A stretch of DNA of 64,000 nt from the NCBI RefSeq assembly GCF_051622035.1, contig NC_135357.1:19155256-19219255 (forward strand), in the 5' to 3' direction. The translations under genes and the position numbers were made by a program. The notes under the pieces are model-generated. The model saw only the letters and a program-made list of their open reading frames with translations. It was not told the DNA's origin and did not search any database. How positions within the stretch are numbered: position 1 is the first letter of the stretch; each line of letters starts with the position of its first letter. The DNA is from Arctopsyche grandis (Eukaryota > Arthropoda > Insecta > Trichoptera > Hydropsychidae). Shown in pieces: positions 11,485 through 40,491 of the stretch.

Positions 11485-11641
11485 AGTGTAAATGTTTGGG
11501 AAAATATTGATTAAATCTTCGACAAATATGTATATAATATGATCTATTGTGTTTATATATATAAATGGATTTATAAATTAGCAAATGATAAATTTTCGTA
11601 CATTTCGTTATAATTTAAAAATTCCCGTTATGTAAATAAGA

Positions 11642-14600
11642 TCATCTCACATTTTCACCCAATCGCATGGCTTGATCCTCTTCTAAAATATTTTCATTGT
11701 TGATATTTTCCGCCTCGGAACCGGACTCACTGCCTGTATCCTTGCCGTCTTTATCCAATTTATACAATATATCATGGCAAAGCGGGCACCTGTCCTGAAC
11801 GTACAGCCACTTACGCAAACACACTCCGTGGAAGTAATGGTTACATTTAGTTATCTTCGCAGAGCTCATTTCTTGATAACAGATTGCACAAACATCGTCT
11901 AACGAATCTAACTGAACACTGGACGCCTCCGGTAGAGAATTTATCTTATTGACAGCCGACCGTCTCTTCATGAAAACAGACCAACCTGCTCTCGCTTCAC
12001 ACCATATATTGAAATACGCGTGGATGCACATCATGAGGGCTCTGATTGCGCCACCGGATTCAAAAAATAGAATCCAGGCACCGTTGAAGAAAAGAAATAT
12101 TCCAAAACAAAATTCTATGGTATTTCCAAAGGCACGAATGTAATATACATAATCGTCAAGTTTTTCCCAGAAAGTAGTGCGATTTGCATCTAATAAAAAT
12201 AGGGCATAAATCATTATACTCACAAAGACTTTTACAATTACTTCTATACTAAAAGCACTAACAGCTAAAAGCCAAGTTGATATAGTGTGGTTGGACCACA
12301 AATAACACAGCAAAACTACAGGGAAAGTGACTAGGAACGCACACACACATAGTGCCCGTACATGTCTATGCAAATTCGGATTGTGTGATGCACTTAAAGA
12401 CATCAACATTGGATTTACAATATTGTGCACAAAGTGCAACAGAGCAGCAAACAACAAACAAAAGTTTCTGCAAAGTCGTACAAATCTTTTCTCCGGATTT
12501 AAAGAAGTGAGACCAGTTTGCAATGCGAGAATATAAAATAATATCGCTGAAACTGTTCCTATGTTCCTATCTTCTTCTTCGTCTGTTAACAGAACCCATT
12601 GGAAAAAGTTACCAATATAATGACAAAAGAATGAAATTACAGAGGTCATTCCCAGTACGGCTGTTATTGTTTCGCAGCCAGTTATAAGTAAGGATTTTGC
12701 CATCGAGGCGAAAGTTTGAAAAGCAAGGAAAGTGCTGACTTTGAAACTGTCATCGGACAATTCATAGTTATCCATAAGGAGTATACTGGCATGCTCCATC
12801 ACTCTGATAATCCAGAACAGTCGCAAAACGCTGGGAACGTTCAATCGTAGCCATTCCATTTCAAATAAAGCGGAAAGTCCAAAATTAGACGCAAAATTTC
12901 TCGCTTGTTGATAGCTAGAAAAAACGATTTGCATGACGGAAAATGCTGAAGACCAAAGGACGAATTTCACTACAAGCAAAGGCAACAACGCAGCAAACAC
13001 AGGTGCATGCTGCAATACTGCATGGGGGAATGGCAGAGTTGCAATAACAGACGGTATTGTGAAACTCCATGGTAACGAATACTGCAACATCCAATGTCTG
13101 GGGCCGAGATTGATCACATAAAATACAGCGCCTAAGACGAATTGCAAGACATAGTTTTGAATAATTATACTGCCGGCTCCTTCGGGATCAACCAGTCGCG
13201 TCATGTTCAGATTTAACGCATCTTCCAATATACTACTTTTGATTACATTTTCAGCACTTTCGGCCGCCGACAATGCTAACATTTGTTTCATAGCTGCCAC
13301 ATTTGCCCAATACGATACGAAGATAATTCCCATAGATGTCAAATACATGTACATTATAATCAGATGTTTCATACGCAGCACAAACATCGACAAGGCGAAC
13401 ATAAAACCTGGAACAACATAACATTTCATTATTATTTATTATTTAAATAAACTATACGCCGTTTTTTAATAAATTCAGTAGATTTTCCTTATTGATGTGC
13501 AAACATTTTGCACTATTAGGAAAAATCAACTAAATTATTCTAGGCTGTTTTAACATACATAAATACATACAGACAAAATATTAAATTATGTTTTTTTTGT
13601 CCCCAATTTTGATGTAATATTTTTTTATTTATAATACATGTAATATTAAGCTGTTCGGAAAGAAATCCATCGTTTTGCATGTTTTCTTTTAGGTTCAGTT
13701 TCAATCCGGACACCACAAAATGCACAACTTTTCGATGAATTCTTTTATAGACTGTTCGTTAGTATTACTTTTTGCTATACAAACCTTTTTGATATTTAAG
13801 GGTGAAATGGAGAAACCCGAAACCAACCAAGAATATGATAGACATTGGATGCTCTTTTTCTACGATCTATTATATACAAAAGCTATTATAAACAAATGTT
13901 CATTTTGGTTCCATCGATTCAAATCAGGCAATAGGAATTTACAGGATGCCTCTAAATCAGGACGACCATCAAAATTCGATGCAGACTTGCAGAATTTTAA
14001 TTTACTTGAAGAATTCACCGTTGTCGTAGATCCCCGGAAAACTATTGAACTATGAAAAAATATCGCAATTAAACTGGGAAGTTGTACCTCATCCGTCATA
14101 CTCACAGGACTTTGTATCCTAGAGAGCATTCATTAAGAGAAAAAATATAGATGACATAAAAAATCATCTTGAAAGTTATTTTGGATTCAAGCCAACTAGG
14201 TTTTCCACGAAGGGTATTGAAAAATTACCAGAGATGTGGAAATTACTTTTACATAAACAAAGAGGGAAGTACATATGTATAAATAGTGAAGAATACACTT
14301 ATTGTTAACATGAAAAATGATGAATTTCTTTCTGAACAACCTAATATTATATTATGAACAAAATATTTCAAACGTAACAATTATTAATAATTTTATTCAC
14401 TATTTTAATTAATTTTCAAACAAAGTGGATCAAAAATGAGATGATAGCCAGTTTAGTTGTAAAGTAAGTATTGAAAATAATTGATTTTATGAGGTAAGCA
14501 CAAAAGGAGGATAATCATCTTGGTTGTATTCAAAGCGAAAATTAAGAATATGATCAGACATTCAGAATTTGATAATTGAGGAAAATAACTAGACTTTTTA

Positions 14601-16409
14601 TTGCATTTTCCAAACAATTCAAATTAATTCCTTGAATAAGTCAATAGTTTTTATCTCAATAAACATAATAGGATGAAAAATCGCATTAGTTAATGTGACT
14701 AATTTATTATAACATTCGCTAAAAAACGCCAATAAGGCTTTAAATTAATCTTCAACATTGTTTCCAAAATAAAACAACCAATTATTTCATATAATTGTAA
14801 TATATATAAAACACCGACAAAATTATTCAATTCTTCTTTCAAACAATATAATATGTATAGTCCACGAATAGCACACATACCCAAACTGGGCAGGCATATC
14901 AAGTTTAATATACATATATTCAATAAATATGATTATACATATTAGGAATAGAAATTAATGGCATGCGTCATGAATAAAAACAAAGTAAAAAAAGGCTAAT
15001 TTTCAATTTCCATTATATTAAGGTGACCATGTTTTTCAAATTGAAAACCAGCACATTTTATCAACAAAAAAATTTTTTTTTTTTCTAAATACTTCCATTA
15101 TTAAAAACTAACAAAGAATTAATTTACTTTAATGCTCTTATAAAATTCTACACAGAACTGGTTAAAATTATTCTTATCGATTAGCAAATATTTTAAAGTT
15201 TTAACATTTAATATTGCGTTTTATCGCTAGACCACATATTATTCATCAAAGAAAAAAGGGTGCTACTTTTGTATGCGGTCTACCTTCACATATCTACTTA
15301 AGTATGCGATCTACCTTCACGTTTTTACTTTAATATGCGGTCTCACTGTCTCAGTTCTCGCATGTGACACTGAGACTGAATAATACCGACCCTAACAACC
15401 TAATCTTAAATGAATAGGGCCAACCTTAACTTAACCTAATCTATCCTGACCGTTAAATAAATAGATGTTGTCTGCTAAGATATCAAGTTTTATTTCATCA
15501 ATATTTTCACAAAAAAAAACATATCTTAGCAGCCAACACATATTTATTTAAGGATCAGGATAGGTTAGGTTAAGTTAAGGTTGGCCCTATTCATTTAAGA
15601 GATATGTATCTGCTGACAATATTTTGATAGAAATGCTTCGACAAGATTATGGGGCGGCAGTAAAAAAACAAAAATTATAATAAACATTTCGTTGCTACGA
15701 TACAAATAAAATAATCGACTGCGATTCAAAGGTAGATCGCATACTAAAGTAGCACCGAAAAAAGTCCATCTGCAGATGCATATGTTCCCGATAAACAAAG
15801 ACAATATTTGACTAATTTGCCGGTATTTTTGTAGGAGGCAACATTTTCACTGAAGGCTTTGTATACTTAAATACATCTATTAGATAAAAAAAAAGTGTAC
15901 AGGTTTTATTTCACGACTTACCATACTCAAAAAACCAGTACTGTACTGGTAGAAACAGTATGAATGGTCACCTTATATTATATGGTAATCCCGACCTATA
16001 CACAATTTAGATTCTTGATATGGGTATTTAGAATTGATTGGAGTTTGAACTATGGCAAATAGAATTGTGATTGTGATAACAGTAGAAAACATGGAAGCTT
16101 ACCACAACAGCAAACAAGGAACTTGGCAAAGGTGTAGAGAAAGGCCTTGACGAAATCGACATTGTAGTAGAAGGCGTCGTCAGAGGCACGGGTCTCGGTG
16201 AGATGGGAAATGGCAGCGTCCGCGAAGAGGGTCAGGTTGAGATGCTGGTCGGGGGTGTGGTTGTGGTTGAGAGTGATCGGATCCGCTTCGGGCTCGCCCA
16301 CCGGCACGGGCAGACCCAGACTCCGCTTGAGCAGTTCGTCGACCACGAAGAGTGGTGGCACGCGCAGACCAGCCTCGGCCAGGGTGGCCAGCCGAGCCCA
16401 CACGGCCAT
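11642..16409 (-). CDS. Trc8: Trc8/RNF139-type ER multi-pass RING-H2 E3 ubiquitin ligase, complete
   Basis: Two coding exons: 16409-16103 and 13407-11642. The junction is CTGTTGTG|GTAAGC to TTCCAG|GT and restores a Gly codon, giving 690 aa (human RNF139 is 664). The N-terminus contains the family-like LRVPPLFVVDELL. About a dozen hydrophobic segments follow, including a block matching RNF139/RNF145 (GCETITAVLGM, LFYILALQTGL, NPMLMSLSASH, EKLDDYVYYIRAFG). The RING-H2 lies at residues 609-646 with C609, C612, C624, H626, H629, C632, C643 and C646, then an acidic Ser/Glu tail. Known role: sterol-responsive ER ubiquitin ligase that limits sterol synthesis and acts in ER-associated degradation; in flies it restrains growth. 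The start ATG in exon 1 has context GACGAGATGGCC inside a GC-rich block. RNF145 is the alternative paralogue, but NHYFH and CLRKWLY fit RNF139 better. Confidence 0.93.
13646..14344 (+). mobile_element. internally deleted mariner element in the Trc8 intron (699 bp)
   Basis: The ends are imperfect inverted repeats of about 31 bp: TTAAGCTGTTCGGAAAGAAA at the left, and TTAGGTTGTTCAGAAAGAAA as the reverse complement of the right end, each followed by T(C/T)CATC(G/A)TTTT. TA dinucleotides flank both sides (13644-13645 and 14345-14346), the expected mariner target duplication. A full mariner is about 1.3 kb, so roughly half is missing. It lies antisense within the single intron of Trc8. Confidence 0.85.
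13800..14130 (+). pseudogene. mariner transposase remnant (N-terminal HTH region)
   Basis: The reading frame contains the mariner DNA-binding landmarks: a WFHRFKSGNRNLQD-like segment, SGRPSKFD, then LLEE and DPRKT. A stop at about 14053 interrupts the frame before a following segment (NIAIKLGSCTSSV) that still resembles the family. The catalytic DD34D region was not found. This is a dead copy. Confidence 0.8.
15021..15973. mobile_element. nested foldback MITE in the Trc8 intron (953 bp)
   Basis: Outer ends are exact 10-bp inverted repeats (AGGTGACCAT at 15021-15030; ATGGTCACCT at 15964-15973), flanked by TA on both sides. This suggests a Tc1/mariner-type MITE. Inside lies a second inverted repeat at about 15259-15765 with ends near GTGCTACTTTTGTATGCGGT. 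Within that is a foldback at about 15408-15600 whose arms, each about 80 bp, contain GGCCAACCTTAACTTAACCT. There is no transposase. Confidence 0.65.
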
Positions 16410-16800
16410 CTCGTCACTCGCTATTCACTGGTTACCTGTCACCTGTCAATTGTCACCTGTCAGCTGTCAGCCGACGAGCACTCCCCACTCCCCACTCCCC
16501 GCAGTCTGCAGTGTGCAGTCCGCAGCCGCGGCCGCTGTCAACCGGCCGGGCCGCGTTACCAACACAACACATGCATACACTAAAACGCACCGCAGCCACA
16601 CATCTATCACGGCTATTCGCCTCGCTATGCGCTGTCACACTACTCACACTCCACACCTCACTCGTGAGATGTCATTACGGCATTGCCACTACCGCTCCTC
16701 CGAAATCAAATTTAACATGCAGTTTAGTTGTGGTGCTACCCATTAGACTTCGATTGAAAATAATGAGGAACGGATTTCGAAAAATTGGGTTGTAGCGTTC
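16410..16800 (-). promoter_or_regulatory. GC-rich promoter / 5' UTR block of Trc8
   Basis: Immediately upstream of the Trc8 start codon (on the minus strand) is a GC-rich block with repeated CACCTGTCA/CAGCTGTCA units (about 16438-16470), E-box-like CAGCTG and CACCTG cores, CCCCACTCC repeats and CGCGGCCGC. It contrasts sharply with the AT-rich surroundings and fits a CpG-type promoter with 5' UTR. No TATA box stands out. Long frames on the opposite strand here are by-products of the GC content. Confidence 0.5.
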
Positions 16801-17160
16801 TTTATTGTTGCATGGTTTTAAGTTGGCAGCACTACATACACCATACTATGGGTAAATGGCGGCTCGTGCATTGGGCTGCAGTACTCTCAGTACAGTACAA
16901 ATGCATGCTATTTTTGTCGTCCACATGGGCTGAGGGGCTGCGAACCTCCCAGTATAGTATATATTCAAGCTATTTTTCTTTTCATTCGATCACAACGAGC
17001 TACTACAGCTTGAATAATCTTTGCAGCCTGCAGATTATGGCGCAAATTGCGATCGCGCGCACGACAATCGTTGCCTCAAAAATGCCTTTCTATTATGCAC
17101 TAGTGTTGTGGCCGTTGAAATTTCAACGGGTGGTTTCGGAAACAAATTCATACATGATTT
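16801..17160. other. repeat-derived flank of the LTR element
   Basis: This interval holds fragments of other repeats. AATGGCGGCTCGTGCATTGG near 16855 resembles the end of the hAT element at 29184. GTTGAAATTTCAACGGGTGG near 17115, followed by TTTCGGAAA, is the repeat motif also found at about 21240, 21775 and 41715. No gene is evident. Confidence 0.45.
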
Positions 17161-17248
17161 TGTGGCGGCTCGCTATACGACATGGCCGAGTTTGGTCACC
17201 TTCCTACGAGTGGGGACCAACTCAGCTGGGTTCGGAGAGCGGCTACTC

Positions 17249-18406
17249 CAGAGAAGTGTTATACAATAGAAGTGCCCTATGGCATCAAAAGTGTCGACAG
17301 TTGAAGTGTGGCTGTAGCCACACTTAATTTTTTTCCGCCGCAGTCGTGTTCCGTGTATGGGGCTGGTCGTATCTCTGATAAACATTGTTCATATTACTGG
17401 CAAGATGGGGAAGTGCATCATTAAAAGTTGCACAATGCATTCAAATACACACAACAAACAACATGGAATACATTTTCATAGGTAAGTTAATCATTTAAGT
17501 AACATATTATTCAATTGACATCGTAATTTGACAAGTTGCATCTTGCGTCTTGCGACCGCCACCGACTGCATACAATTTCAGGGGTGGCACCAGAGAAATG
17601 TAAAAATAATTAAAAAACACTATAGCCTATATCGCCGGGTTTGCCGTGAAAAAAATATTACAAAAAATATGTTGTAATTATTGTTGTGATGCGCTAGTTT
17701 CTGAAAATCTACTTCCGTATCACAATTTAATTATTTTAAAAGATAAAGGAGGGTTAGTTTACCCCACTCAAGAAGTAATTGATATTTGCTGCACTTGTGA
17801 AGAATTATTTAAATGTGTCTTAACAGCAAGTGGTAATAACACCTTATTGCCAAAATACGATCTAAATTTTTTTGTAAGCAAAACTTTATATCAACTATTA
17901 GATACCTCCACCATTATTAGATTTGCTCCACATTTTGACGGAAATACAGAAAGTCATTGTTTATTACCAATTAAAGCAATAATCGAGAAATATTTTTTAT
18001 ACGATTACATTTTGAAAGTAAAATGTTTACTATAAAAAATAAAAGCGAAAGTAACCGTCAACGCTTTAATAAGCAAATTCTTTTTAGTGGTTTCTAATTT
18101 AATTTTTTTATTATTTGTATCAATATTTAATTGTAAATAAATCTCTAAACATGTATATTCTATTATCAAAAAATAAATAAAAAGGACTTTTATTTCTGTA
18201 GTGAATTTGTGATGACCCTAATTCCGTTCGTGAAAAAAGGTCTGTTAATTAAAAGCTGGCGCGTAGACACGATGTTCTGACTCTTTCTCGCGCGCGGACA
18301 CGCTTACGAGCGTGACAGAGACAACTATTACTAATTATAGTCTGTGAACGCGCTTGACACAGGATATTTGTTCAAAAAGGCACTTCTATTGTATAACACT
18401 TCTCTG
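17249..18406 (+). mobile_element. P-element-like transposon, internally deleted (1158 bp)
   Basis: Perfect 28-bp terminal inverted repeats occupy 17249-17276 and 18379-18406 (CAGAGAAGTGTTATACAATA, then GAAGTGCC). The 8-bp target duplication GGCTACTC is exact at 17241-17248 and 18407-18414. An empty version of the site is present in the other LTR at about 19337. An 8-bp duplication, long perfect inverted ends and a THAP-containing reading frame all point to the P superfamily. Most of the transposase is missing, so it is non-autonomous, but the perfect ends suggest recent movement. Confidence 0.92.
17406..18035 (+). pseudogene. P/THAP9-type transposase, central part missing
   Basis: The first exon at 17406-17481 starts MGKCIIKSC and reaches HGIHFHR, the first half of a THAP zinc finger (C-x4-C pair, then the HFHR motif). 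It is followed by a good donor (AG|GTAAGT). A second block at about 17646-18035 encodes a Cys-containing C-terminal part (NYCCDALVS, KGGLVYPTQEVIDICCTCE) that resembles the C-terminal region of P and THAP9 transposases and ends at a normal stop. The RNase H-like catalytic core between them is absent, so the product cannot be an active transposase. Confidence 0.75.
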
Positions 18407-19429
18407 GGCTACTCACTCTGCCTTCAGCTGTCATAAATAAAACACTTGCATTAACATGCCAGTCGTCTCATTCGTTCATCCCCCATAACTGGTGACCCCC
18501 GACATCGAGCCACGCAGCCTCGATTAATTCAGCATGCCGCTGCTCATCCCTGCCTCGCCGAGCCAGACGGGAAAGCTACCCGCCGCGCCGCCATCGCCAT
18601 CGACACAGCACGTCACGGCCCGCGGGTGACAATAAACGAGCAGACACGGCTACCTACCTACCTACCTACCGACTGGAGTCCAGCCACAACGTCGATGACA
18701 GGTGCTTAAAAAAATGGGGGAGCGAATGAGACGACGATCTTGACAGCTGGATGTGGAGTCATGCGTGATCCAGTACACATAGAACGGTCATCCAGCACCA
18801 CAAGACATACACCACCTCAGCACCATCATCATCATCATCATCAAGGCCCCGTCCGTCCCCACGAGCGTCGTCACGCCGAGACGGGCGGCAGCGCTACAAC
18901 ACCTCCACGAGCCACAACGACTCACGGTCCAGCTCGGAGTATCATCAACCACATCGATGCCCCTGCCGCCCCCGCCGCCCCACCAACCGACATCAGCCTC
19001 GGAAGAGCGGCGCCGGCGCAGCATCGCATCGGCGCGACCATCGGACGAGCCACCGTTCTGCTCGCGACGTCACCGCCCTTGAATATACCGACCATTCAGG
19101 GCGGTACACCTACACAGCGGATGACCCACGTCAACAATTTTTTTTCTCCCCACTCAATAATTTTTTTCTCTTTCTTTGTGTAACAATATTTTTTTTTCTT
19201 TGTAAAATTTGTTTCTTTGTAATTTTTGTATCGCTGATGCTTGGGGGGGGGAGTTATGTGGCGGCTCGCTATACGACATGGCCGAGTTTGGTTACCTTCC
19301 TGCGAGTGGGGACCAACTCGGCTGGGTTCGGAGAGCGGCTACTCACTCTGCTACTCACTCTGCCTTCAGCTGTCATAAATAAAACACGTGCATTAACATG
19401 CCAGTCGTCTCATTCGTTCATCCCCCATA

Positions 19430-20096
19430 ATTTTGTAGGAATATAGTACAACTTGTGCTATTACATCAAAACCAGCGATCTCATTATCGATCCTGTCCAA
19501 AACCGCATAACTCGAGGGCAACGACCCCTTCGACCATTCCAGAAGGAAGAGTTCATCGTTCGATCGTTAAACAACGAAACCCAGCAGTGATGTGAACAGG
19601 CGACCGCAACGCATGTTCCGAAAGACATTTACACGTGAAAAGTCATTAACTCGTGGCACACGCTTGCATTCTCAAACGAACGACGTCCTGGCTCTGAACC
19701 CATAAAACCACACATGTACCGAGCACCCGCCTCAAATATCAACCCGTGTCTCTAACACGTGTGTCCTGGAAACGAAGACAAAGCATTTGCACGCGACACG
19801 CTCCAACCCAAAAGGTATATAAAGCAACACAGCAGCTCCAGACACCAGAGTGATCCACTGGAGTTGAACCAGTTCACATCTCCGAAGCGCTCTTCCTCTT
19901 CGCTCCAACCTCTTCGTACATACAATAACCATTGTACCAATTGAACGAAAATAAACGATCCTCTTTCAAACTCAACTGAATTTCCATAGGCCGGGAAACG
20001 GTCGAAACCTTTCATCCGTCCTATAATTGGTGACCACCGACTACTAAATTGGTGATTACTAAAATTTAAAATATAGTTACAATACAGGTACAAGGT
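19430..20096 (+). mobile_element. LTR fragment of a second retroelement
   Basis: A TATATAAAG box at about 19816 is followed by a probable R/U5 region, an AATAAA near 19950, and then CCTATAATTGGTGACCACCGAC at about 20023. This is the same order (TATA, polyadenylation signal, primer-binding-site-like TGGTGACC) as at an LTR/internal junction. The primer-site core matches that of the TRIM-like element. The 5' end is not defined and no internal genes follow, because the sequence passes directly into a LINE fragment at about 20097. Confidence 0.55.
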
Positions 20097-21058
20097 AATG
20101 TGTTATTCCAGATCCAGATCTATCCCCGATCGTACCTTTTCATATCTTGCTGGTAACTCTTTATTGAACTGGATCGATTCTAGTGTTGATCTTGGGGTTG
20201 CATTCCAGAGTGACCTAAATTTCTCTGATCATATTGACTCGTGTTGCTCTGCCTCACGAATGCTTGGGTTTGTCTTTCGTAATTCTCGACACTACCATAA
20301 TCCCGCTGTTTTGAGATTGCTGTACAATGCTTTAGTTAGGAGTGGAGTATCTTGGAATACACCTCTATGATCCGGAATCGTTCCACTAAATCTCTATCTA
20401 TGAAACTTGAACTTATCCAAAGACGCTTTCTCCGACTGCTTTATAAGGAGCAATATAGGATTTACCCATATTTATTTCCTTCACAATTCGTCATGGGTAT
20501 GGTCGGCTACACTTCCCTTGAACACAGGAGGAGTGTTGCCCTCATCAAGTTCTTGTTTTCCATATTTAGAGGCTATATCTCCTGTCCGTCTCCTGGCTGA
20601 GTTGGGCCTTCATGCTCCGGAGAGTGTGATATGGACCCGACATCGTCCCCTTTTTACATACCTCCTTTGCATTTCACTTGGTTTTCGTGTTAATAGTAAT
20701 TCACACTCCTCTGGCTAGAGCTGTGGCTTATAGTTATTCTCCTATTCCTCGTGGCCTCCGTTTCTTAAATTCACTGGATGGTGCCATTGACATTTGTCAC
20801 ATCTCTCTTCATTCTCAGCACCACTCCCATTCCTCGCGACCATTTAGAAAGGTTGAGTTAGTTTGTTTAGTTATGATATTTATTTGTCATGTTTATTTAT
20901 TTATCTTTTCTTTATTTAAGTATTTTTAATTGTAAAATTTCATGTGCTTTTTTCCTTTCTTAATCTTTTTAGCGCTTTTTCAACGCTTTGGAGCAATCTG
21001 TTAGACGAGTGTGCTTGATTAATTGATGTTGTATAATAATAAAATAAAATAAAATACG
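20097..21058 (+). pseudogene. 5'-truncated, decayed non-LTR retrotransposon (LINE)
   Basis: Translated pieces in shifting frames match the region after the reverse transcriptase core of Jockey/I-like LINEs: DLGVAFQSDLNFSDHI, RMLGFVFRNSRH, LRLLYNALVRS, LELIQRRFLRLLYK and TSLEHRRSVALIKFLF. Frameshifts at about 20350 and 20600 and several stops show that it is dead. A 3' UTR-like AT-rich part follows and ends in AATAATAAAATAAAATAAAA at about 21030-21056, a typical LINE tail. Only the last kilobase of the element is present. Confidence 0.75.
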
Positions 21059-21059
21059 A

Positions 21060-21845
21060 ATAGTAATAATTAATCGAAATCGGAACTAAAACCGAAATTG
21101 GGAATTGGAACTTAAACAAGGATCGGTATCCGGAACTGAAAATGGAGTCCGTATCCGAAACAAAAAGGAATCCAGAATCCGGCGGCCCCCGGTGCCATCG
21201 CTGCCGCCTCGAGGCTACCGAAAATCGAAATCGAAACGGGTGGTAGTTTCGAAACGGGTGGTTTCGGAAAGGAGTTAATACACGTGTGGCGGCTCGCTAT
21301 ATGACATGGTCGAGTTCGGTCACTTCGGTCAACTCGGCCGCGTTCAGAGTTGCTACTATCACTTCGTCTTCGGCCGTCATAATAAACACACGTGCATTAA
21401 CAAGCCAGTCGTCTCATTCGTTCCATCCCCTAAACACGAATTATAAATTACGAATTACGTACGCCGACTTCAGACCCCCCCCCCACACTTCCCCGCTACC
21501 ACACTACCCTGCTACCCACACTGCATTTTATTCGGCCGCGGCTGAGTGAAATCCCTGCGTCTCAAATACTCGGCTGTGATTGGTTCCCCATTCTTGTCCA
21601 CGTTCTGTCCCTTTTTCAGTTGCGGATCCCGATTCTTTTTTCAGTTCCGGTTCCCTATTCCTTTTTCTATTCCGTATCCCGATTATTGTTTCAGTTCCGG
21701 ATCCCGAAGTGATACATTCGCGATGCACAGGACGTATCACTTCGTTATTCGTAATTCGTGTATCAATTTCTTTCCGAAACCACCCGTTTCGATTTCAATT
21801 TTGATTTCGAGGGCGGCGACTTTTGATTTCGATATTAATTTTGAT
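21060..21845. mobile_element. inverted-repeat element hosting a solo LTR
   Basis: The left part (about 21225-21284) contains CGAAACGGGTGGTTTCGGAA and ATACACG. The right part (about 21750-21800) contains the reverse complement, ATACACGAATTACGAA... in inverted order. The outer parts on both sides carry repeated GGATC/CGGAACTGAAA-type sequence in opposite orientation. The motif with TTCAACGGGTGGTTTCGGAA recurs at about 17115 and, inverted, at about 41715. This is therefore one of several copies of an unclassified family with inverted ends. No coding sequence is credible. Confidence 0.5.
21285..21433 (+). mobile_element. solo LTR of the TRIM-like family
   Basis: Starts TGTGGCGGCTCGCTATATGA and ends CATCCCCTAA, with the internal GTGCATTAACAAGCCAGTCG and TCTCATTCGTTC shared with the LTRs of the element at 17161-19429. 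ACACG flanks both sides (21280-21284 and 21434-21438), a 5-bp target duplication. Only one LTR is present, so the internal part was lost by LTR-LTR recombination. Confidence 0.85.
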
Positions 21846-23207
21846 TATGTACTTATAAAGTAGTCTTCAGAAGGTTAAATCTAATGAAAAATATAAAATT
21901 GATGTTTAAAATTGTTTTATTCTTATGTCTATATTTTCGTTCATTATCGACTGTTATTGTTCAAATTAATAAATAATTAATGTTAAAATTTGTTGATTTT
22001 TTAATATAAATTTAAAATTGAGTAGAAGCTACATGGCAACAAATTTTATTTTCACATTAATCGCAGAATTATCGATAAAATTAATAAAAATCTTTTATTT
22101 TCATTTCTGTTATTCATATTGATCATGTATATTTGCAATAAAAACTAATTAAAAGCTTGTTACTAGTGAAACTAACAAAAAGCTTGTAAAAACAGAGAAT
22201 TTTCACGACATGCCAATGGTAGACATAATGTGTAGCGTTTTCCAAAAAAACATAGATAGCCTTGTAACAAGCTAAGAAGAGGTATGTATGTAAAAAATAG
22301 CCACCTTCTCAACAAAATAATACAATCGGGCAACTATAGATGGCGCTAGGCCTTTGCAAAGAATATTGAAATGAAATATAGATTAATATCATAATAAATT
22401 AGTATTTCAATAACAATAAAGAAAATAAGGGGAAAAAATGAATAAATAAATTTTTACAGTGATTTCCAAATGATGTTTGATATCTGTGAGAATTTGTTTA
22501 CATTTGTATTTGAACTCATTTCCATTTCCTGATGGGTTTTAAAGACCACAAAAATATCGTGGTGTTTCATTTTTGGCCATGATGGGCAGTTTTTTCAGAC
22601 ATTCAAAGATATTTACTAAATTTATACAAAAATTTTGGAAATATTTAATTTTTTTCTTGAAAATCAAAATATAATTCTCATAGTTTCAAATTTCCTAATT
22701 TTACAGATTAGATTTTAAATTTGCTTAAATCTAACATGAATTCAACTTACAGCTACATATGTATGTACCTATGTACATATATTACATATATAATATTTCT
22801 AGTCGCCCGCCCGTCAGATACATATGTACAAATTAATTAAATGTGCAACTTCAAGGAAAGAACAAAACATTGAATGGCATGGTTGGTGACGTAAATGCAT
22901 TCAAGGGGACACTTTCCTTCCTAGAAGTGCAATAAGGAGAAAGGATTTAAAACAATTCGAAAATATGGCAGCCATGTTTACATATAGAAACTCACATGAA
23001 TATGATCAATATGACAATACGATATCTCTGTAAGAAATGAGTATGATAGAAGATTTAAAGATGTTTCAAATATAGAGGATATAATATTATTCATGTCATT
23101 CTCATTCAATGATGAAATACAAATAGAAGACATATCAATAAAATTAAAAGAATTTTTGGATGTGGACCAAATACTAGTTGAGGATCAAGAACTTCTTCTC
23201 AAAATAG
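21846..23207. other. intergenic, no gene seen
   Basis: AT-rich sequence with (TATG)n near 22750. A reading frame at 23093-23338 has no recognisable similarity and runs into the hAT element at 23208, so I do not call it a gene. Confidence 0.45.
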
Positions 23208-24122
23208 CAGGGATGTCATTTCGGCTTTTTCTTGGGGGGGGGGGGGGGAGGAAAAAATTGGTCAAATTGAAATTTTTTCAAAAAATATTTTCATATCGAA
23301 ATAAAAATGGAAATTATACCATGAATACAACCTACTGAGTTATAAAATATGAAAAAAATAAGCTTATTTTTGAAAAAAAGGTTCATAAAATTCATAAAAT
23401 CTTCACATCGCCAACAAAAATCGTGAATCAAATCTGTATCTCTAAAAAACTAGCAAATTAACTTAATTTCTACCGAGTGTCTTTTAACTTTATCTATGTA
23501 TGTATGTATGTATGTACGTAATAACAATAGATGAAGTTTTGTGATCATGCGAATATTCGAACTGAAGACTTTGACTAATTCGAACTTAGAATCGATCGAA
23601 TTATAAGTTTATTGCCAAGTTATATATAAAAATTCGTGAACATGCGTCAACCGGAAGTGGCAATTTACTCTTGTTCGATTTTTCTTCCACTATTTTTTTC
23701 GACCCTCAAAATATGTGTATACACGACAAAATTCAAGTATAATCCTTGTATCAGTGTGATGAAAATAAAAAAAAAATTAACCGGAAGTGGGATTTTTTCC
23801 TCTTAGAAAAGTCAAAAATATTGTGACCACACCCCTGAACGTATCAAGCTGAAAATTTATATATGTATTTCCACGACATTGGGTCTCCCCGTACCGATTC
23901 TGAGAAATAACTAATAACGGTCATTGTTTAGCCTAAATGCACTTAGAGTCCAGATATAATCTATGGAAGTAAGTGCATGCATTTAGTTAATCCGATAACA
24001 GATATCCGTTGGTCTAAGTGCAATTCGCTCAATCCGCGGCGTACGTAACACTATTTTCTAAATTAATAAATTTAGGGGGGGCGAGTGCCCCTCCCCCCAT
24101 GCCCCTCCAAATGACGTCCTTG
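23208..24122. mobile_element. hAT-type non-autonomous element (915 bp)
   Basis: Ends CAGGGATGTCATTT and, as the reverse complement of the right end, CAAGGACGTCATTT form imperfect inverted repeats. The 8-bp flank CAAAATAG is exact on both sides (23200-23207 and 24123-24130). An 8-bp duplication and CAG-type ends are hAT hallmarks. G-rich and C-rich subterminal tracts (about 23233 and 24075-24105) are also inverted. No transposase is encoded. The interior contains a piece of the (CA)n repeat family (about 23480-23720) and a piece of an LTR (about 23870-24053), so other elements landed in it or were captured. Confidence 0.85.
23870..24053 (-). repeat. LTR family B fragment, minus orientation
   Basis: Shares CATTGTTTAGCCTA(C/A)ATGCAC, the GATTCTGAGAA/CAATTCTGAGAA block and the terminal GTACGTAACA with the solo LTR at 31274-31660, in the same orientation. 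Only the 5' half of the LTR is present. It lies inside the hAT element at 23208-24122. Confidence 0.6.
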
Positions 24123-24439
24123 CAAAATAGTTATTGAAATTTACTTTGTGAAAAAAAATATCGATGTTTTTGGAGATGTGCGGTATTAGACAACTTTTTT
24201 CGATTCTACTTACTACTCTGCAAAGCAACATTTTCCACCATGAATGAATTCAAAACCAAACATCGCTCCCGTAAAACAGATGACCATTTGAAATCATGTT
24301 TACGAATAACTGTAAGTACATATGAACAACAATATGACAAGCTTGCCGAAAATATGCAATGTCATGTTTCTGAAGTACATTATTTGCATTAATAAAAACA
24401 AAATTAACGAACATATTGTTTTATTTATAAACTATGTAT

Positions 24440-24819
24440 TCTAGCGTATGCTAAAAGGAGCCGCCGTTATAATTGGTTTCCAGGATTATCTGCAGGCTTA
24501 AGTGCAAGTCGGCTAAACAATGAGAGACTCCCGAATGCACTTAGCGGCGATAGCGGCACTCGGTCGCATTCCCGTGGAGTTCTTAGAACTGACAACGCCA
24601 AAGTGTGGACTGCACATCCGAGTACGTGACTAAACAATGGGGAAGTAACCGGATGTCGAAGATGCCTTGAGCGACCTGTACTTTATAAGGAGGTACTTAG
24701 ACCATATCAAGACATTCTGGACGGAGCACTGCCAATGTGTGTATCTCCTTAATCGCCAATAAATGCTGTGAAACGACTTCGGCCTTTTACTTGGATCCTC
24801 CACCCACCCCTACGCAACA
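24440..24819 (+). repeat. LTR family B fragment, plus orientation
   Basis: Contains GGTTACTT-type sequence in inverse form, a TATAAGGAGGTACTTAG TATA-like region at about 24683, AATAAATGCTGTGAAACGA (polyadenylation-type signal at about 24760) and the terminal CCACCCCTACGCAACA. It matches the reverse complement of 31274-31660. Together with 23870-24053 it places two pieces of one LTR family head to head on either side of the hAT right end. Confidence 0.65.
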
Positions 24820-24888
24820 CCTATTTTATATTTATGTGAAGTAAGGTATTATCTATGTTTATTTTAAATTTAAACATATTTTTTACTT

Positions 24889-25855
24889 AAATGTTTTATT
24901 TTATTTTGGTCGACTAGGTATGGTGCAAGTGTTGTGTTGTTTCACAACTCAAAATAAAATCGAGCATTTAATTTATTTATAATAAACAGTGAAGGGAATT
25001 GATTGCTTTAAATTACGAAGCGTTAATGGATTTTTTACATGAAAATTTAAGTGTTTATAAAAGCGATCGTGAGGTGCGTTAAAATATGCATTGAAAATAA
25101 CTTAAATTAATTAATCACGATAAAATGCAATTATATTATGTTTATCTATTGCAAAGCAAAGTGCTCAAAGCCACGCGAATTCAAACATCCTTTGTTTTTT
25201 AACAGGGAAAACTCGTTTTTTACGGAAAAATCTTTTTACATTTATTTAGATTTTTCCTTGGTCAACGATTTAAATACGATTTTGGAAATCAATTAATGAA
25301 CTTTGTTATGTACATCTATTATTGCACATATGTAGGTATATCGCAGGGGTGGCCAAACTTTTGATCACTACGGGCGACCTGCTTTTTAGATTATTGGCGA
25401 CGTTCTACTTACATATGTGCAATAATAGATGTACATAACAAAGTTCATTAATTGATTTCCAAAATCGTATTTAAATCGTTGACCAAGGAAAAATCTAAAT
25501 AAATGTAAAAAGATTTTTCCGTAAAAAACGAGTTTTCCCTGTTAAAAAACAAAGGATGTTTGAATTCGCGTGGCTTTGAGCACTTTGCTTTGCAATAGAT
25601 AAACATAATATAATTGCATTTTATCATGATTAATTAATTTAAGTTATTTTCAATGCTTATTTTAACGCACCTCACGATCGCTTTTATAAACACTTAAATT
25701 TTCATGTAAAAAATCCATTAACGCTTCGTAATTTAAAGCAATCAATTCCCTTTACTGTTTATTATAAATAAATTAAATGCTCGATTTTATTTTGAGTTGT
25801 GAAACAACACAACACTTGCACCATACCTAGTCGACCAAAATAAAATAAAACATTT
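24889..25855. repeat. near-perfect large palindrome (two arms of about 449 bp)
   Basis: The left arm (24889 to about 25337) and right arm (about 25407-25855) are reverse complements. I found only about four or five mismatches over 449 bp, for example CAGTGAAGG against CAGTAAAGG and TTAATCACGA against TTAATCATGA. The spacer is about 69 bp and contains CAGGGGTGGCCAAACTTTTG and GGGCGACCTGC, which look like a hAT terminal sequence. The outer borders fade into weaker inverted similarity. The arms have no coding potential. A transcript would fold into a very long hairpin. Confidence 0.93.
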
Positions 25856-26521
25856 GTAAATGTTTACAAATTTTAATTACATATGTACATCCTTTTTCTT
25901 TCAAAAAACAATTGAAAAATTTCACATGTAGAGATTCCATAAAATTGATAGACTATGAATAAAAACGACCTCTGCTTTGATTGCAAATGCGATAAAAGTA
26001 AATGAACGACGAGATAAAATGGATTAGGTACGAAAATTTCAGCGTCATCATACGCAGTATTTTTACAAAATCGAATAATTTCGATCTAAGTGTAGTTTTC
26101 CGTTTTTCGCAAACTTCCTTCCAGAGCTCGATTAAAAAATATTAAAAAAAAACAAGTGAATTAGTGATTCATACGATTACACGTTTAGACAGCAACATCC
26201 TTTCATGAGCGTGAATTTTGTTTATTGTTGTTTCGATTAACTAAATAGAAACGTATTTCCTTTACATAATGGACAAAAACACTTAACATAAAAAATAGAT
26301 ATGTATGTATTGTATTCATCATTTAAAAAATATACATTCATATTACCTGCAATTAAATAAAAATATATTACAATCCAAATTTTTGGGCGTTTATATAAAT
26401 TATAGTATCAAATAAAAATGAAAGTGAGTCCATAATATTAATTTGTGACTGTAAACAACGTCGCAGTGCAATATTAGAAGGATGTTATTATTATATTATT
26501 ATGATGCATAGGAATTCGGGT
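25856..26521. other. intergenic, no gene seen
   Basis: AT-rich sequence between the palindrome and the composite MITE, with no reading frame or repeat that I can assign. Confidence 0.45.
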
Positions 26522-26528
26522 CTACCCC

Positions 26529-26902
26529 ACGGGACCGAAAGTGAAAAGGTCGAAAAAGCAAATATCGAAAATCGAAAGATCTCAAGTCGAAAGATCAAAA
26601 AAAAGGGTGCATGGTAAACGGTACTATGTATATATACTATATATCAGTGGCATGCAGTGAAATTATCTCTCTTTTTGTCATACAGCCTTGTTTAATGTGC
26701 GCGCGCAGGATACGGGAGGAAAAGCTTGTTCCTCTTGTTCCTGTTGTATCCTGCTCGCGCAAATTAAGTGAGGATGTACGACGGGGGAAGAGAGAGAGTT
26801 TTATCGCACGCCACTAGTATATATACTAACCGTTTTTCATATGTATGCATGATAAACGAATATTTTCGACTTATTCACTTCGACTTTTTCACGGTCACCC
26901 TA
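26529..26902. mobile_element. composite MITE, copy 1
   Basis: The outer ends are inverted and imperfect: GGACCGAAAGTGAAAAGGTC at the left, and GGTGACCGTGAAAAAGTCGA as the reverse complement of the right end. Between them sits a second element at about 26645-26816 with its own inverted ends (CAGTGGCATGC / TAGTGGCGTGC) in a TATATA context. The inner part contains GTGCGCGCGCAGGATACGGG and GGAGGAAAAGC. The same outer and inner arrangement recurs at 52272-52624. Confidence 0.75.
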
Positions 26903-29183: not shown

Positions 29184-30718
29184 CAGTGGCGGCTCGTGAA
29201 TAAGATATCGGGGGGTGCTGCGGTTGATTAAAAAAATGTTTATTTGGATTATATTTTATTATTAACATCAAAATTATTAAAATTAAATGTTATATGTATT
29301 TTTATTTCATTATAAAATTGATTCTTCTGTCTTTTTTCCTTGAAAAACAGTCTCACCTTTTCGTTGAATTTTTCATTATTCATGATCATTTTTTTTTTCA
29401 ATTGACAGCATAGACAAAGCCGTCAATCTTTCCTCAACCATTGTGTTTCTCATACATATATATGTCTTTTTATTGACGAAAATCACCGTTCTGGCTCGGT
29501 GGTAGTCATTGGAGTTGTGAGATAAATTTGAATAAGTTTTGTTATTTCCTCAAGAACTTTGCATAAATTGCTTGCAGAAATAAATTTTAATATTGCATAT
29601 TTCCAGCATGCAATTTAAGATATCATTTTGAATCGATTTTGAAGTGCATTTAAAAACTGAATCACTACTTAAGTGTATTTTTAATTCTGAATCCAAGTTT
29701 ACAGAATAATTGACGAGCCCTTTAAAAACGCCTGGATTGATGGAATCGTCTGTCTCATCATGGCCACGAAGAGGAAGTTCAAAGTATCCGCAAAACTTTA
29801 TACAGTCTATTATTTTTGATAATAACTGTCTGTTTTTCATGACATTTTCATTATGTCTACCCAATAGTGACAAACCCACGACATTATCTACGTATGTACA
29901 TATATGTTTTCTTAAAAGTTCATGTTTAGACGTTTTTTCTTTTATTCTATTAATGCCATTAAATCCATTTTCTGTCCAGAATGAATCGCCACCCATTAGC
30001 AAACATGGAAAACAAAATAATGTATTTCTTATTTCACATCCACAAAGCCAATTCTTCTTATCATACCAATTTGAACTAAAAGTTTGAACGTATTTTCTAT
30101 TATGGCTAACTCCCGATTGAGTAATATGAATATCTGGAATAGGACGACCTCTTCGAACGGTCTTCACTTTTTCCTCGAGTGACAACATTGAAAATTTCAT
30201 CGTTTTTATTTCTGTTATGGTTAGAGCCATGATTCTGTTCCAAAAATAGGGGCAAATCTCGCTTTTAAAAAAATAAGTTTGCCAAACAAATTAGAAGAAA
30301 TAAAACTCTTACAGTGAGGTGTAGAATGAAGTGTAGAAATGTAAAAAGTGTAAGAGGTGTAGAAGGAAAGACGAAAGCAGAAGGAATGACGAAAAGTGAC
30401 AGGTCTCGGACACGCGCATACGACGCAACACGAAATACTGTCGGAAGTGGCAGTACGAGACCAAGTTTCTAGCTGCGAGCTCCCTCCCCGCGCCCCTCCT
30501 TCGCCCACTCGAGCATATTTCATCGAAAACCGTACTGCAAAAAATCATAAACGATATTAGTACCGAGGTATATGATCATTATTGAATGTATCGGTGTGTG
30601 GGAGCTTAAATAATATTGATATTTACATATAATATACATAAATTTATGTATATTACATTTTTCTCAATTTTCTTGGAGGTGCTGCAGTACCGCAGTGCAT
30701 ATGGACGAGCCGCCACTG
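29184..30718 (-). mobile_element. hAT element with truncated transposase (1535 bp)
   Basis: Perfect 14-bp terminal inverted repeats (CAGTGGCGGCTCGT at 29184-29197; its complement at 30705-30718). The exact 8-bp target duplication GATATAAG lies at 29176-29183 and 30719-30726. The subterminal regions are also related (GGTGCTGCGG near 29213; GGTGCTGCAG near 30677). The element encodes only the first part of a transposase on the minus strand, so it is a deletion derivative that probably moved recently. Confidence 0.93.
29550..30230 (-). pseudogene. N-terminal fragment of a hAT transposase (TTF finger / DUF4371)
   Basis: An open frame of 226 codons starts at 30230. It shows the TTF-type finger (NWYDKKNWLCGCEIRNTLFC, then FPCLLMGG), FWTENGFNGINRIKEKTSKH, and the beginning of the DUF4371 region (LSLLGRHNE, KFCGYFELPLRGHDE). 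The frame is intact but stops well before the catalytic RNase H-like core and the hAT dimerisation domain; full transposases of this group are about 600-800 aa. Such fragments can bind ends without cutting, but no such function is shown here. Confidence 0.82.
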
Positions 30719-31273: not shown

Positions 31274-31660
31274 TGTTGCGTAGAGGTGGGTAGAGGATCC
31301 AAGTAAAAGGCCAAAGTCGTGTCACAGCATTTATTGGTGATTGAGGAGATACACGCACTGCTAGTGCTCCGTCCAGAATGTCTTGATATCGCCTTATAAC
31401 GGATCGGTCGCTCAGGGCATCTTCAACGTCCGGTTACTTCCCTATTGTTTAGGCATGTACCCGGATATGTATTCCCACGACACTCAGTCCTACGGTATCG
31501 GTCAATTCTGAGAAGACCAATAGCGGCCAATTCCGTGGCCATTGTTTAGCCTACATGCACAGTCTAGAGATAATCCTTGAAATCAATTATAACGGTCACA
31601 CAGTCTCTGGGATGCTACTCGGCCTAATCCGATTGCTCTTACTCGGCGGTGTACGTAACA
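31274..31660 (-). mobile_element. solo LTR, family B (387 bp)
   Basis: On the minus strand the sequence runs from TGTTACGTACACCGCCGAG to CTCTACGCAACA, with a TATAAGGCG-like TATA region and AATAAATGCTGTGACACGA as polyadenylation signal in the second half. TG...CA ends and the order TATA then AATAAA are typical of an LTR. Fragments of the same family are at 23870-24053 and 24440-24819. No clean target duplication and no internal region are present. Confidence 0.7.
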
Positions 31661-33444: not shown

Positions 33445-34873
33445 AGTGCTTTCAATCCCGGAAGGTTACTTCAGCACCGGGATTGCGGTGCTGGGAATTT
33501 CCGATCCTGCGATCCCGGTGCTAGCACCGGGATTTCAAATGTATATGAAAAAAAGTTCAATTGCATGTTTTCATATTTCAAAAACGTTCAATTGCATTTT
33601 GCAAACTCTCCCTATGTTTCACGCAAAAAATACTCCCATATTGGCGTACTAATTTTGAGAGTTTGGCTACATTCTTTAAATTTTCGGTTTGTATCCATAA
33701 ATTTCTAAGATTAAATAAAAAAAATCCGAAAATACAATTAAATAAAGTAAAAAAACATCGCTTTGATTCATTGATTCGTTTTTACAAATAGTTTGTACCG
33801 TCTAGTAATTATTCATCGAAACAATCCACCTAATATAAAAAAACTCCAATTACATATACTTTATGTAGAAAATTCGGATGTGACCAACCTACGACTTAAT
33901 CTTTGTATTTGAGGAATACAAGAAGGATAAAAAACAAAATTCGATAATCAATACAAATTGAACACAAATGTATGTATAAAAAACACATAAATAACCTTGA
34001 TTCTCTAAATTAAAAGTACTACTTTCGAAAGGCTTAGGAAATAATATTGGGGCATAATATTAATAATTTCTATTACAAGTAAGAAATTTCAGTCCGATTT
34101 GATGAGTGGTTTGGGAGATAATTTAATTCAAAAACTTAAAAAGAAAGAGGACACCTTTAAGGGAAGGTACCATTTCCGGTCAACCTAAAAATTTGAAAAA
34201 AAATTACGGTGAATCGATAAAAATTTCAGTATCCAATACTAAGTTTCAGTTCGATAGGACAAACAGTGTTCAAAAAATCCCCAAAATACACAGACACACA
34301 CACACACACACACACATTTTTTCTAGATCATGAAAATGTGATCAGTAATCGATTCTGTGTTCGAATCAGTCAAAATCTCGAGTTTGAATTTTCGCATGAT
34401 CACAAAACTTCATCTATTGTTACTACGTACATACATAGATAAACTAAAAAACATAATTTACAATTCCAAATGATTTAATTTTTTCAAATTTTATATTATA
34501 TTTACCGTTCTATTTCAATTAAAATAAGTAGTTAAAATAAAATAAAAGTTAGAATCAGTTAAAATAAGCTTCAAATATCATTGAGGTTGAGCACAATATC
34601 TGCGAAACAATACAGGTCGTTCATACCATTTCGTGGAAACGGCAAGTCGGCGTCTAAACGGATGGAAGAAACGGGTGGCAAACAAATGGACTATGACTGC
34701 CATTGCTCATCCCACCATTGTTCATAATATAATGTTGTTTTATGTTTTTTTCCATATTATTTTTGTAAAAATAATATTTTTAAAGAAATTCCTGCCAGCA
34801 CCGTAATCCCGGTACTCAGACTAGTTTCAGCACCGGGATTCACGGTACCTGAAAACACCGGATTGGAAGCCTT
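33445..34873. mobile_element. unclassified element with CAATCCCGG ends
   Basis: AGTGCTTTCAATCCCGG at the left matches the reverse complement of the right end (TAAGGCTTCCAATCCGG). Both sides also carry repeated CAGCACCGGGATT segments (33470-33540 and 34790-34850). The interior holds a copy of the (CA)n repeat family (about 34060-34440). The right part (from CGTGGAAACGGCAAG at 34633) recurs in ebony intron 1 at about 53966-54162. No transposase is recognisable. Confidence 0.6.
34060..34440 (+). repeat. (CA)n-bearing dispersed repeat, copy 1
   Basis: A family with the order GGTACCATTTCCGGTCAAC, GATAAAAATTTCAGTA, TTCAGTTCGATAGGAC, a CA-dinucleotide tract, AGATCATGAAAATGTGATCA and ACTTCATCTATTGTTACTAC. 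Other copies lie at 35276-35880 (minus), 40246-40620 (plus) and 50660-51075 (minus), and a part is at about 23480-23720. Each copy has a different CA-tract length. Class unknown. Confidence 0.75.
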
Positions 34874-35275
34874 AATATGTACAAATATCACATGCTTCGA
34901 TCCCTTCACAATCAGATAAATCTATTTCCACGTAAGGAAAAACCTTTCTCCGTGATCGGACCAGTGTTATTTGCTTTACTTTCGACCTGGATTTTGCTAT
35001 TCCAATTCACTCCTGGATTTTCCCAGAAATTGATCAATTCGTCATTGTCATAAGCATTACAATACTTCTGAGAAGACCAGAAGGGTAAAACCGTTTAATT
35101 AATGATATGGCGGTTGAATTGGACTTGAAAATGTACTTGTCACCGTCGAAAAACCGTCGTTTGTTTTTACTATATGTTCATACATAATTTCTTTCGAGAA
35201 GAATCTTCGAAGATCTCTATCTGTCCATGCTCCTTTTTTGTTTATAAAAATTAACAGGAAGATTTGTATTTTATC

Positions 35276-35880
35276 TATGTATGAATGTATGTATGTACGT
35301 AGTAGCAATAGATGAAGTTATTTGATAATGCGATAATTCGAACTCGGGATTTTGACTGATTCCAACTTAGAATCGATCACTGATCACATTTTCATGATCT
35401 AGAAAAAAATTGTGTGGGTGTGTCTTTGTATTTTGGGATGTTTTGAACACCGTTAGTCATATCGAACTGAAATTCAGTATCGGTTACTAAAATGCTTATC
35501 AATACGACGTAAATTTTTTTACAAATTTTTAAGTTGACCGGAAGCGGCACCTCTGCTTATAAATATGCACATAGTTGTCGTCTTTTTTATGTTTTTGGAT
35601 TCAATTATCTCCCAAACGGCTCAATGAATCAGAATCAATTTTTTTTACATGTAATAAAAAACTATAAATTTTATACACTTATATATATTTTTTAAATATT
35701 TTTACCTCAACCGAAAGAAGTACTTTTACTCTAGAAAATCGAGGCTTTTTATGTTTTTCCCAGAAACCTTTTATTATTGTACTGAAATTTTATATCTAGA
35801 AGTTTAAGCTTAATACCAAGTTACATATAAAATTTGGTGAACACCCGTCAACTGGAAATGGCAGCTAACTCCTGTTTGTT
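35276..35880 (-). repeat. (CA)n-bearing dispersed repeat, copy 2
   Basis: Inverse orientation to copy 1. It is longer than the others: beyond the CCGGAAGCGGCACCTC segment it continues with TTGGATTCAATTATCTCCCA and a third ACTGGAAATGGCAG segment. The 'CCGGAAGTGG' motif recurs two or three times per full copy, so the full element appears to be at least 600 bp with internal sub-repeats. Confidence 0.7.
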
Positions 35881-38864: not shown

Positions 38865-40245
38865 AGATTTTGCCTTGTACATATGTACATATGTATAATA
38901 TATCAATCTTAGAAAATTTCTAATTAATTATTAAAAGCCTATAGTATTACTTCGTTATTTATTTTTAAATAGGAAATACGATCAATCTAACATTCAATTA
39001 TTTTTTCTACCATATTAGTTCTTTTGTTATATGAAATTTCTGGAAACAATTTGACATTATTCCCACATATTAAAAAATATATATAAGATAAATAAATTGA
39101 AAATATAAATAAGCGTAACAAAAATGTTGTAAATTATAAGGACAAGGCAAACTTGTGCCATTTCTAGTAGATTATAAACGCCATCCCCCATGGGACGTAT
39201 GTTCTTGCGTTCGATATGTACACTGGCGGAAATCCTCGACATATATAATATATGTACATATATCCACTTAACAGTTTTACTAAAATTCATATGATTAATC
39301 AGAAAATAAAAATATGCGAACAAACTGCAACGGTGACAATCATCATTTAAAAAAAAATCAGTTTCAAGTATAATTTATTCTGCGATAAAGAACATGTTTT
39401 CAAATTAATTATGGCCTTATTACAGATACATACATATTTAAATTGCATTCATTTGAATAAATCAGTTTATTTTTGAAAATGAGCGTCTGAACTTCGAGAT
39501 ATTACATCAATAATAGAAATGCTGATATACACTATTTCATACATAAATAGATTATTCATATTATGAGATGATTCAACAAAGATTTCAAACACATTTTGCA
39601 AATATAATTTAAGGTAAAATGTTAAGAATCTCGTATTTTTTTTTTATCTTTTAACAATTTGTCACTAATTTATTTTTTTTGAACGTATTTTTATCTTTTA
39701 ACAATTTGTCACTAAAAATTAAATATTTGAATTCAGACAGTCAGAAAGACATTGGGTAATTTGAAAATGAACGTGAATTAAAAAATATATACCGAAAACA
39801 GACTGTATGTATATATCAGTTCATCAACCTGATCTCAAGCTAGTGACCTCAACACTTTTAGTTTTATTCGTATGTACCTAAATACCTTGCAGCTCAGATG
39901 TTAAAGTCGCATATATGTATGTACATATGTAAGGATACGAATACCTTTATCTGCTTGGTACTTGATAATAATGTATGCGAAATATCAGGTATTGCCAAAG
40001 GCTCGCATTCTCAAACCCAGCATGTGACTGCAAATCTTTGGTAAATATTTATGCATATACATACATATATGTACATACATATATGTACATACATATATGT
40101 ACATACATATATGTACATACATACATACATTTGTGTATATGTTCATTTTTGCTTTTTATATATAGGTGAAATGAGCGTAAATATTCATTTTATTGATAAT
40201 TGTACAAATAATAAAAATTAGCGGTTTAGATAATTGAATTGAAAA
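38865..40245. other. intergenic with short tandem repeats
   Basis: No gene is seen. At about 40056-40132 a 14-bp unit (ACATACATATATGT) is repeated about five times. Near 39635-39720, TATCTTTTAACAATTTGTCA occurs twice about 60 bp apart. Confidence 0.5.
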
Positions 40246-40440
40246 ACTTAAAAAAAGGGGACACCTATAAGGGGAGGTACCATTTCCGGTCAACTTAAAA
40301 ATTTAAAAAAAATTTACGTCGTGTCGATAAGAATTTCAGTAACCGATACCAAGTTTCGGTTCGATAGGACTAACGGTGTTCAAAGAATCCCCAAAATACA
40401 CAGACACACACACAGACACACACACACACACACACACACA

Positions 40441-40491
<51 letters not shown>

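Follow-up and report, generated by a model that had tools for sequence, protein, structure and literature searches.

How does a chromosome come to carry a near-perfect palindrome, and does the palindrome do anything once it is there? We address these questions for a locus of the trichopteran Arctopsyche grandis, at positions 24889-25855 of a 64,000-nt stretch of DNA (positions 19155256-19219255 of contig NC_135357.1; hereafter the window, whose coordinates are used throughout). The window contains no N, and the locus lies inside a 38.05-Mb contig. A first-pass annotation, made from the letters alone, had described two arms of ~449 bp with four or five differences around a 69-bp spacer that contains a hAT-like terminal sequence. 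It left several readings standing: a young palindrome, one maintained by gene conversion, an assembly artefact and a source of hairpin RNA.

Results

Architecture and age of the palindrome

The near-perfect palindrome is confirmed, and the earlier figures are all close to those measured. In strict alignment, the arms are 450 nt each, at 24889-25338 and 25406-25855, and align without indels. A repeat search gives arms of 455 nt, 24889-25343 and 25401-25855, 99% complementary, with 57 nt between them. Three substitutions fall in the arm bodies, at 24991/25753 (G/A), 25087/25657 (T/A) and 25118/25626 (C/T). A fourth, at 25335/25409 (G/A), sits at the inner edge, in a part of the right copy that already resembles hAT sequence. 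The left arm A (24889-25343, plus strand) comprises the strict 450 nt and a putative target-site duplication (TSD). The spacer (25344-25413, minus strand) starts with the hAT-type terminus CAGGGGTGGCCAAAC at 25344 and holds the terminal ~70 nt (up to 79) of a hAT element, inverted relative to hAT pieces found at 22830-24891. The right arm (25406-25855, minus strand) would mark the original position of A, and the right flank follows at 25856-26515 (plus strand).

Given the length and identity of the arms, a chance origin of the palindrome is excluded. Folding of the locus as RNA yields -729 kcal/mol versus -183 (sd 6) for 20 shuffles, which only restates the palindrome. No other inverted repeat with arms of at least 200 nt at no less than 95% identity was found in 153.5 kb scanned with loops under 3 kb and low-complexity sequence masked; this sample consists of the window and ten 8.5-9-kb pieces of the same genome, which were picked around hAT copies and are not random. 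The divergence between the arms, 3/450 nt or 0.67% (95% Poisson range, 0.14-1.9%), agrees with the first-pass view that the structure is young. At a Drosophila-type mutation rate of 2.8e-9 per site per generation, it corresponds to an age of ~1.2 million generations, with a range of 0.25-3.5 million. Gene conversion between the arms would imply a greater age.

Copy number of the arms and the flank

The first-pass annotation had proposed a genome search for other copies of one arm. In a search of the same assembly (475.67 Mb, 189 contigs), a 452-nt query from the left arm recovers two places, namely the two arms. The adjoining 660 nt of right flank recover only themselves. The arm therefore appears to be single-copy chromosomal DNA, within the limits of a search that passes over very common words and scores the best candidates only. 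Because the arm query finds the two arms only and the right flank finds only itself, the arms are not the ends of a multi-copy transposon, and we rejected the idea that they are a transposon in their own right.

A second palindrome of the window, at 44832-45142, gives a useful comparison. It resembles the first in its near-perfect arms (131 nt) and short loop (49 nt), and differs in copy number. Its search returned 573 first-look candidates, and the best 40 scored were the query itself and 39 other places on many contigs, 93-95% identical on the better strand. By its sequence relatives, 44832-45142 is a palindromic MITE with many dispersed copies. By contrast, no dispersed copy was found for the palindrome at 24889-25855, which is not the behaviour of a mobile element.

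The spacer matches the terminus of a hAT family

A 75-nt query from the spacer region finds 27 places in the same assembly, 26 of them elsewhere, at 81-92% identity. This bears out the earlier remark that the spacer contains a hAT-like terminal sequence. Ten of the 26 places were fetched as pieces of 8.5-9 kb. Members of the hAT superfamily have CAG...CTG termini and create 8-bp target-site duplications. Both features are found among the relatives. Seven of the ten fetched copies have a CCCCTG end, and the octamers that follow such ends include CTATACAC, GTATAGAT and CTATAGTG. In the copy L038, the opposite terminus reads CAGGGGTAGCCAGAG, and the identical octamer CTATAGTG stands at both ends, delimiting a 1351-nt element with a perfect 8-bp TSD. 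The terminal octamers differ by one mismatch in L033 (2062 nt) and L037 (548 nt), and by two in L035 (1635 nt). In the other six fetched copies, no octamer was found beside a CAGGGG-type terminus; in L034, an exact octamer with CAG lies at a distance of 631 nt, but the sequence after CAG is not a terminus of this type, and L039 also lacks a right terminus. The longest open frame among the four delimited copies is 190 codons, and these copies look non-autonomous. The window copy shows one end only.

Eleven of the 26 other places lie within closely similar surrounding DNA. These are L012-L020, spaced a few hundred kb apart at 30.8-34.3 Mb of the chromosome-sized contig C2, and L010 and L011 on the small contigs C145 and C107. 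Six of the eleven share 97.5-99.97% identity with L012 over 2.5-3 kb, and four show 91% over 1276 nt and 99.6-100% over 269 nt. The surroundings of L010-L020 suggest a segmental repeat unit that has dispersed together with a hAT end and its flanking octamer, the same each time.

The rest of the hAT element lies left of the left arm

The first-pass annotation lacked what we consider the key point of the locus: the remainder of what reads as the same hAT element sits immediately to the left of that arm pair, oriented opposite to the spacer, which explains how the palindrome could arise. A hAT interior at 22830-23207 (plus strand) corresponds to about 729-1020 of L038 and is 86% identical to L038, 83-88% to L033 and 74% to L030; the right terminus of an element in this orientation is expected to point right. 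The same interior continues at 24123-24435 (plus strand), which corresponds to L038 1016-1189 and L033 1507-1846 and is 79-92% identical to L033, L038, L030, L032 and L031. The intervening sequence, ~23208-24122, is read as one or more nested insertions. A further probable nested insertion occupies 24436-24846, where the window copy has ~410 nt versus ~66 nt in L033; its part 24607-24819 is 83% alike over 213 nt to 31274-31475, in inverted orientation. The last hAT stretch before the left arm, 24847-24891 (plus strand; about L038 1202-1246), is 93% identical to L038, 89% to L033, 87% to L031 and 92% to L039 (37 nt).

Seen from L038, its positions 729-1020 match 22830-23119 of the window (86%, plus strand), 1016-1189 match 24125-24298 (85%, plus strand) and 1273-1351 match 25420-25344 (79%, minus strand). 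The pieces thus read as one hAT copy that keeps its collinearity as far as the left arm, with its terminal ~79 nt recurring flipped as the spacer. Positions 1-728 of L038 have no match within the 64-kb window, so the window copy is truncated on the left. If the element was L038-like, ~26 nt (1247-1272) have been lost between the last stretch and the tail; if it was L031-like, the loss is larger, since in L031 ~330 nt separate the terminus from the last piece before the arm. The spacer is 90-91% identical to L031/L037-type copies versus 82% to L033 and L038, and the interior pieces occur in L030, L032, L033 and L038; L030-L033 are 74-92% identical to some of the left pieces, and L037 matches none of them. 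The true ancestor was therefore a subtype outside the fetched copies, which leaves the lost length uncertain.

A candidate 8-bp target site, GTATATCG, abuts the hAT terminus at 25336-25343 (plus strand). Its mate would be expected at the left end of the hAT copy; a search of 10001-24900 did not reveal one next to a CAG terminus. That interval has five octamers that differ from it at a single position, at 13226, 15307, 15789, 17171 and 19267, none of them beside a CAG terminus, and two weak terminus-like sites, at 17579 and 22457, pair with none of the octamers. Because the left half of the element is missing and the second TSD was not found, insertion of the hAT element at exactly this site is a tentative reading.

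The junctions

Both junction zones are hybrid. On the minus strand of the right arm, the inner right junction reads GCACATATGT|AAGTAGAACGTCGCC. The GCACATATGT part is arm sequence, and the AAGTAGAACGTCGCC part resembles hAT, for example CACATAATGTTAGTAGACCGCC in L037. An ATGT at this junction is common to the arm and nine of the ten hAT copies and lies inside a similar patch of ~10 nt; the ancestor would therefore have had a short imperfect inverted repeat with its halves ~75 nt apart. We scored this similarity as the mean against the e95-e61 stretch of the ten hAT copies, where e positions are counted inward from the hAT terminus. Among background 25-mers, 18 of 1669 equalled the score of the arm's inner 25 nt; among background 16-mers, 41 of 1696 equalled that of the last 16 nt before the junction. 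The similarity is modestly above background, and is suggestive rather than strong.

At the outer left junction, the strong hAT match runs to ~24891 and the arm starts at 24889, and the AAAT at 24889-24892 also occurs in L033. Each junction thus has a candidate microhomology of ~4 bp, joined at the inner one by the imperfect inverted repeat of ~10 nt. A weak, AT-rich similarity to hAT runs on to ~24917, which leaves an uncertainty of ~26 nt in the outer boundary.

Discussion

From the identity, orientation and collinearity of the hAT pieces, the arm search that found no further copies, and the hybrid junctions, all of which are observed, we infer an ancestor, an order of steps and a switching polymerase. 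In the ancestor, the order from left to right would have been hAT interior, hAT tail (e79 to e1), TSD (CGATATAC on the plus strand), A' (450 bp) and right flank. Moving leftward from the flank, a DNA end or nascent strand may have halted ~9 nt short of the hAT terminus. The halted end could then have paired, via CACATATGT in the flank, with CACATAATGT-type hAT sequence as seen in L037, on the complementary strand in the hAT tail and through the short imperfect inverted repeat. Backward copying would cross the tail, the TSD and 450 bp of flank, and the copied strand would rejoin the hAT interior at another microhomology of ~4 bp, with the loss of ~26 nt of hAT or more. The predicted product, hAT, A, inverted tail, A' and flank, is a palindrome looped by the hAT tail, with the TSD between A and the inverted tail. 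Candidate triggers are a stalled fork, a random break or a cut by hAT transposase. We consider it probable that the palindrome is such an inverted templated copy of the hAT tail plus 450 bp of flank, inserted at the border of the two and made in an error of DNA replication or repair at the margin of an old hAT copy. As expected of a two-step template switch or of fold-back synthesis, an apparently single-copy source is duplicated in inverted orientation beside itself, and the spacer derives from sequence adjoining the source, to the extent that the hAT relatives give the ancestor correctly.

Two related routes were set aside. A precise cut at the hAT terminus as the joining step, as in alternative transposition of the maize type, is disfavoured, since the inner junction is displaced outward from the terminus by ~9 nt; a break made by transposase is still a possible trigger. 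Insertion of a hAT element into a pre-existing palindrome is rejected, as the spacer contains a single end of the element, whose remaining part is found on the outer side of the left arm.

Alternatively, the hAT tail and A' might have been excised with a 450-nt stagger on the outer side, flipped and rejoined, and filling in of both overhangs would have duplicated A in inverted orientation. Such a microinversion yields the identical final arrangement, so that copying and staggered breakage are inseparable on arrangement alone, and staggered breaks explain inverted duplications at the ends of Drosophila inversions (PMC7584159). Here, however, the duplication is found at one breakpoint only and covers all but a small part of the inverted segment (450 of ~530 nt), and the inverted repeat at the inner junction, modestly above background, is not needed by the model. 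Because of the short inverted repeat and the duplication at a single breakpoint, synthesis-based copying is favoured, and we leave the staggered break a small but real chance.

An artefact of assembly or library preparation, either a fold-back chimeric read or a haplotype mis-join, looks unlikely, and we give it little credence. Amplified libraries can contain inverted chimeras with short loops. A fold-back chimera of the inferred ancestor, however, predicts the inverted right flank to the left of the left arm, where instead the hAT interior is found, and the right flank was found nowhere else in the assembly. A haplotype mis-join would fail because, by reasoning, the junction of tail to A' is absent from both the ancestral and the simply inverted arrangement. 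In addition, two transitions, one transversion and no indel distinguish the arm bodies, and the 38-Mb contig runs unbroken by Ns through the window. The artefact that the first-pass annotation had kept open is thus disfavoured by outer flanks that differ from each other and fit a specific two-breakpoint history, and the locus appears to be a real, young, single-locus inverted duplication.

Templated copying of this kind resembles several known systems. The four-point template-switch model of Loytynoja and Goldman also has inverse copying between two switch points that creates an inverted repeat, and in its notation we would place the present event as order 3-1-2-4, read from the right flank to the hAT element (PMC7954356). 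The great-ape events of that paper have a median length of 12 and reach at most 128 (PMC7954356); the segment copied here is ~530 nt, and its ancestor is deduced from transposon relatives instead of an outgroup genome. Fold-back inverted duplications described in human (PMC3907307) and yeast (PMC10622511) share the single-copy spacer and have a short inverted repeat at the edge, which here is modestly above background. In the yeast case described, mismatches of an 11-bp imperfect repeat were corrected (PMC10622511); here, both arms read GCACATATGTA identically. The present duplication is interstitial, 450 bp long and locally rejoined, with neither a terminal deletion nor a dicentric, and its spacer measures 57-70 nt as compared with 766-70466 bp in the human set (PMC3907307). 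A Drosophila microinversion is similar in that adjacent DNA of comparable size was inversely duplicated, with copies of 534 and 540 bp; that case is linked to an inversion, whereas here the involvement of a large inversion is not known, and its authors also propose template switching as an alternative cause (PMC7584159).

Most likely, then, the palindrome is a well-resolved example of a known mutation class, and not a new genetic element. What makes it unusually legible is the transposon that straddles the breakpoint, because of which the order before the event and the orientation of the pieces can be deduced from one genome; the event can also be dated from the arms. If our reading is right, inverse-templated copying of ~500 nt happens in the A. 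grandis lineage, and the resulting palindrome has apparently survived for roughly a million generations. Hairpin-RNA loci could plausibly arise from palindromes of this type.

Whether this palindrome has become such a locus is a separate matter, since transcription, dicing into siRNAs and maintenance by selection would be compatible with any origin. A transcript is predicted to form a duplex of ~450 bp. Several newborn hpRNA loci of D. simulans lie close to their source gene, and many others are distant (PMC10317233). According to the D. melanogaster work summarized there, a typical Drosophila hpRNA is substantially complementary to one target or a few (PMC10317233); here, in contrast, the arm matches only its partner, in a search that would miss 21-nt targets. 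We regard a functional hairpin-RNA locus as very unlikely. The same very low probability applies to a more specific version, in which a template-switch product ~1 million generations old would be a hairpin-RNA gene at birth, transcribed and making siRNAs that regulate its own source sequence or, from the loop side, silence the hAT family.

Searches for coding or structured RNA at the locus gave the following. The arm's 28-aa open frame, by eye, has a BACK-like look and splice-like borders, which we took to suggest an exon. Its matches in the assembly are the two arms only. Pfam and PDB gave no match to a 29-aa peptide that covers it, nor did Pfam match a joined peptide of 70 aa. The coding reading was dropped on these grounds. 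Searches for tRNAs and for Rfam families at gathering scores returned nothing in the window. Most likely, the palindrome has no selected function.

Least tenable is the reading of the whole palindrome as a transposable element with long terminal inverted repeats (a MITE or foldback element): palindromic MITEs do occur in this genome, as at 44832-45142, but an element of that class should be present in more than one copy and only the two arms were found, the outer edges (TTTTTTACTTA on the left, TGTAAATGTTT on the right) show by eye no matched direct repeat, and the left outer boundary falls at a hAT piece while the spacer is the rest of such an element, so that the idea is largely contradicted already and scarcely credible.

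Other features of the window

The window contains further repeats. Two MITE-like copies, at 26518-26900 and 52258-52625 (88%), have an imperfect internal palindrome, and two further short imperfect palindromes lie at 15404-15600 and 58924-59129 (86% and 72%). Related repeat copies at 33981-35758, 40217-40696 and 50703-51048 occur in both orientations and are 67-93% alike; those near 34.3 and 40.4 kb contain CA-repeat tracts. An open frame at 29550-30290 (minus strand) has a weak match to DUF4371 (26.8 bits versus a cutoff of 32.1) and may be a remnant of a hAT/ZMYM-type transposase. A long open frame at 11642-13435 (minus strand) matches a RING E3 ligase of the TRC8/RNF139 type (TRC8_N, E 1.4e-177).
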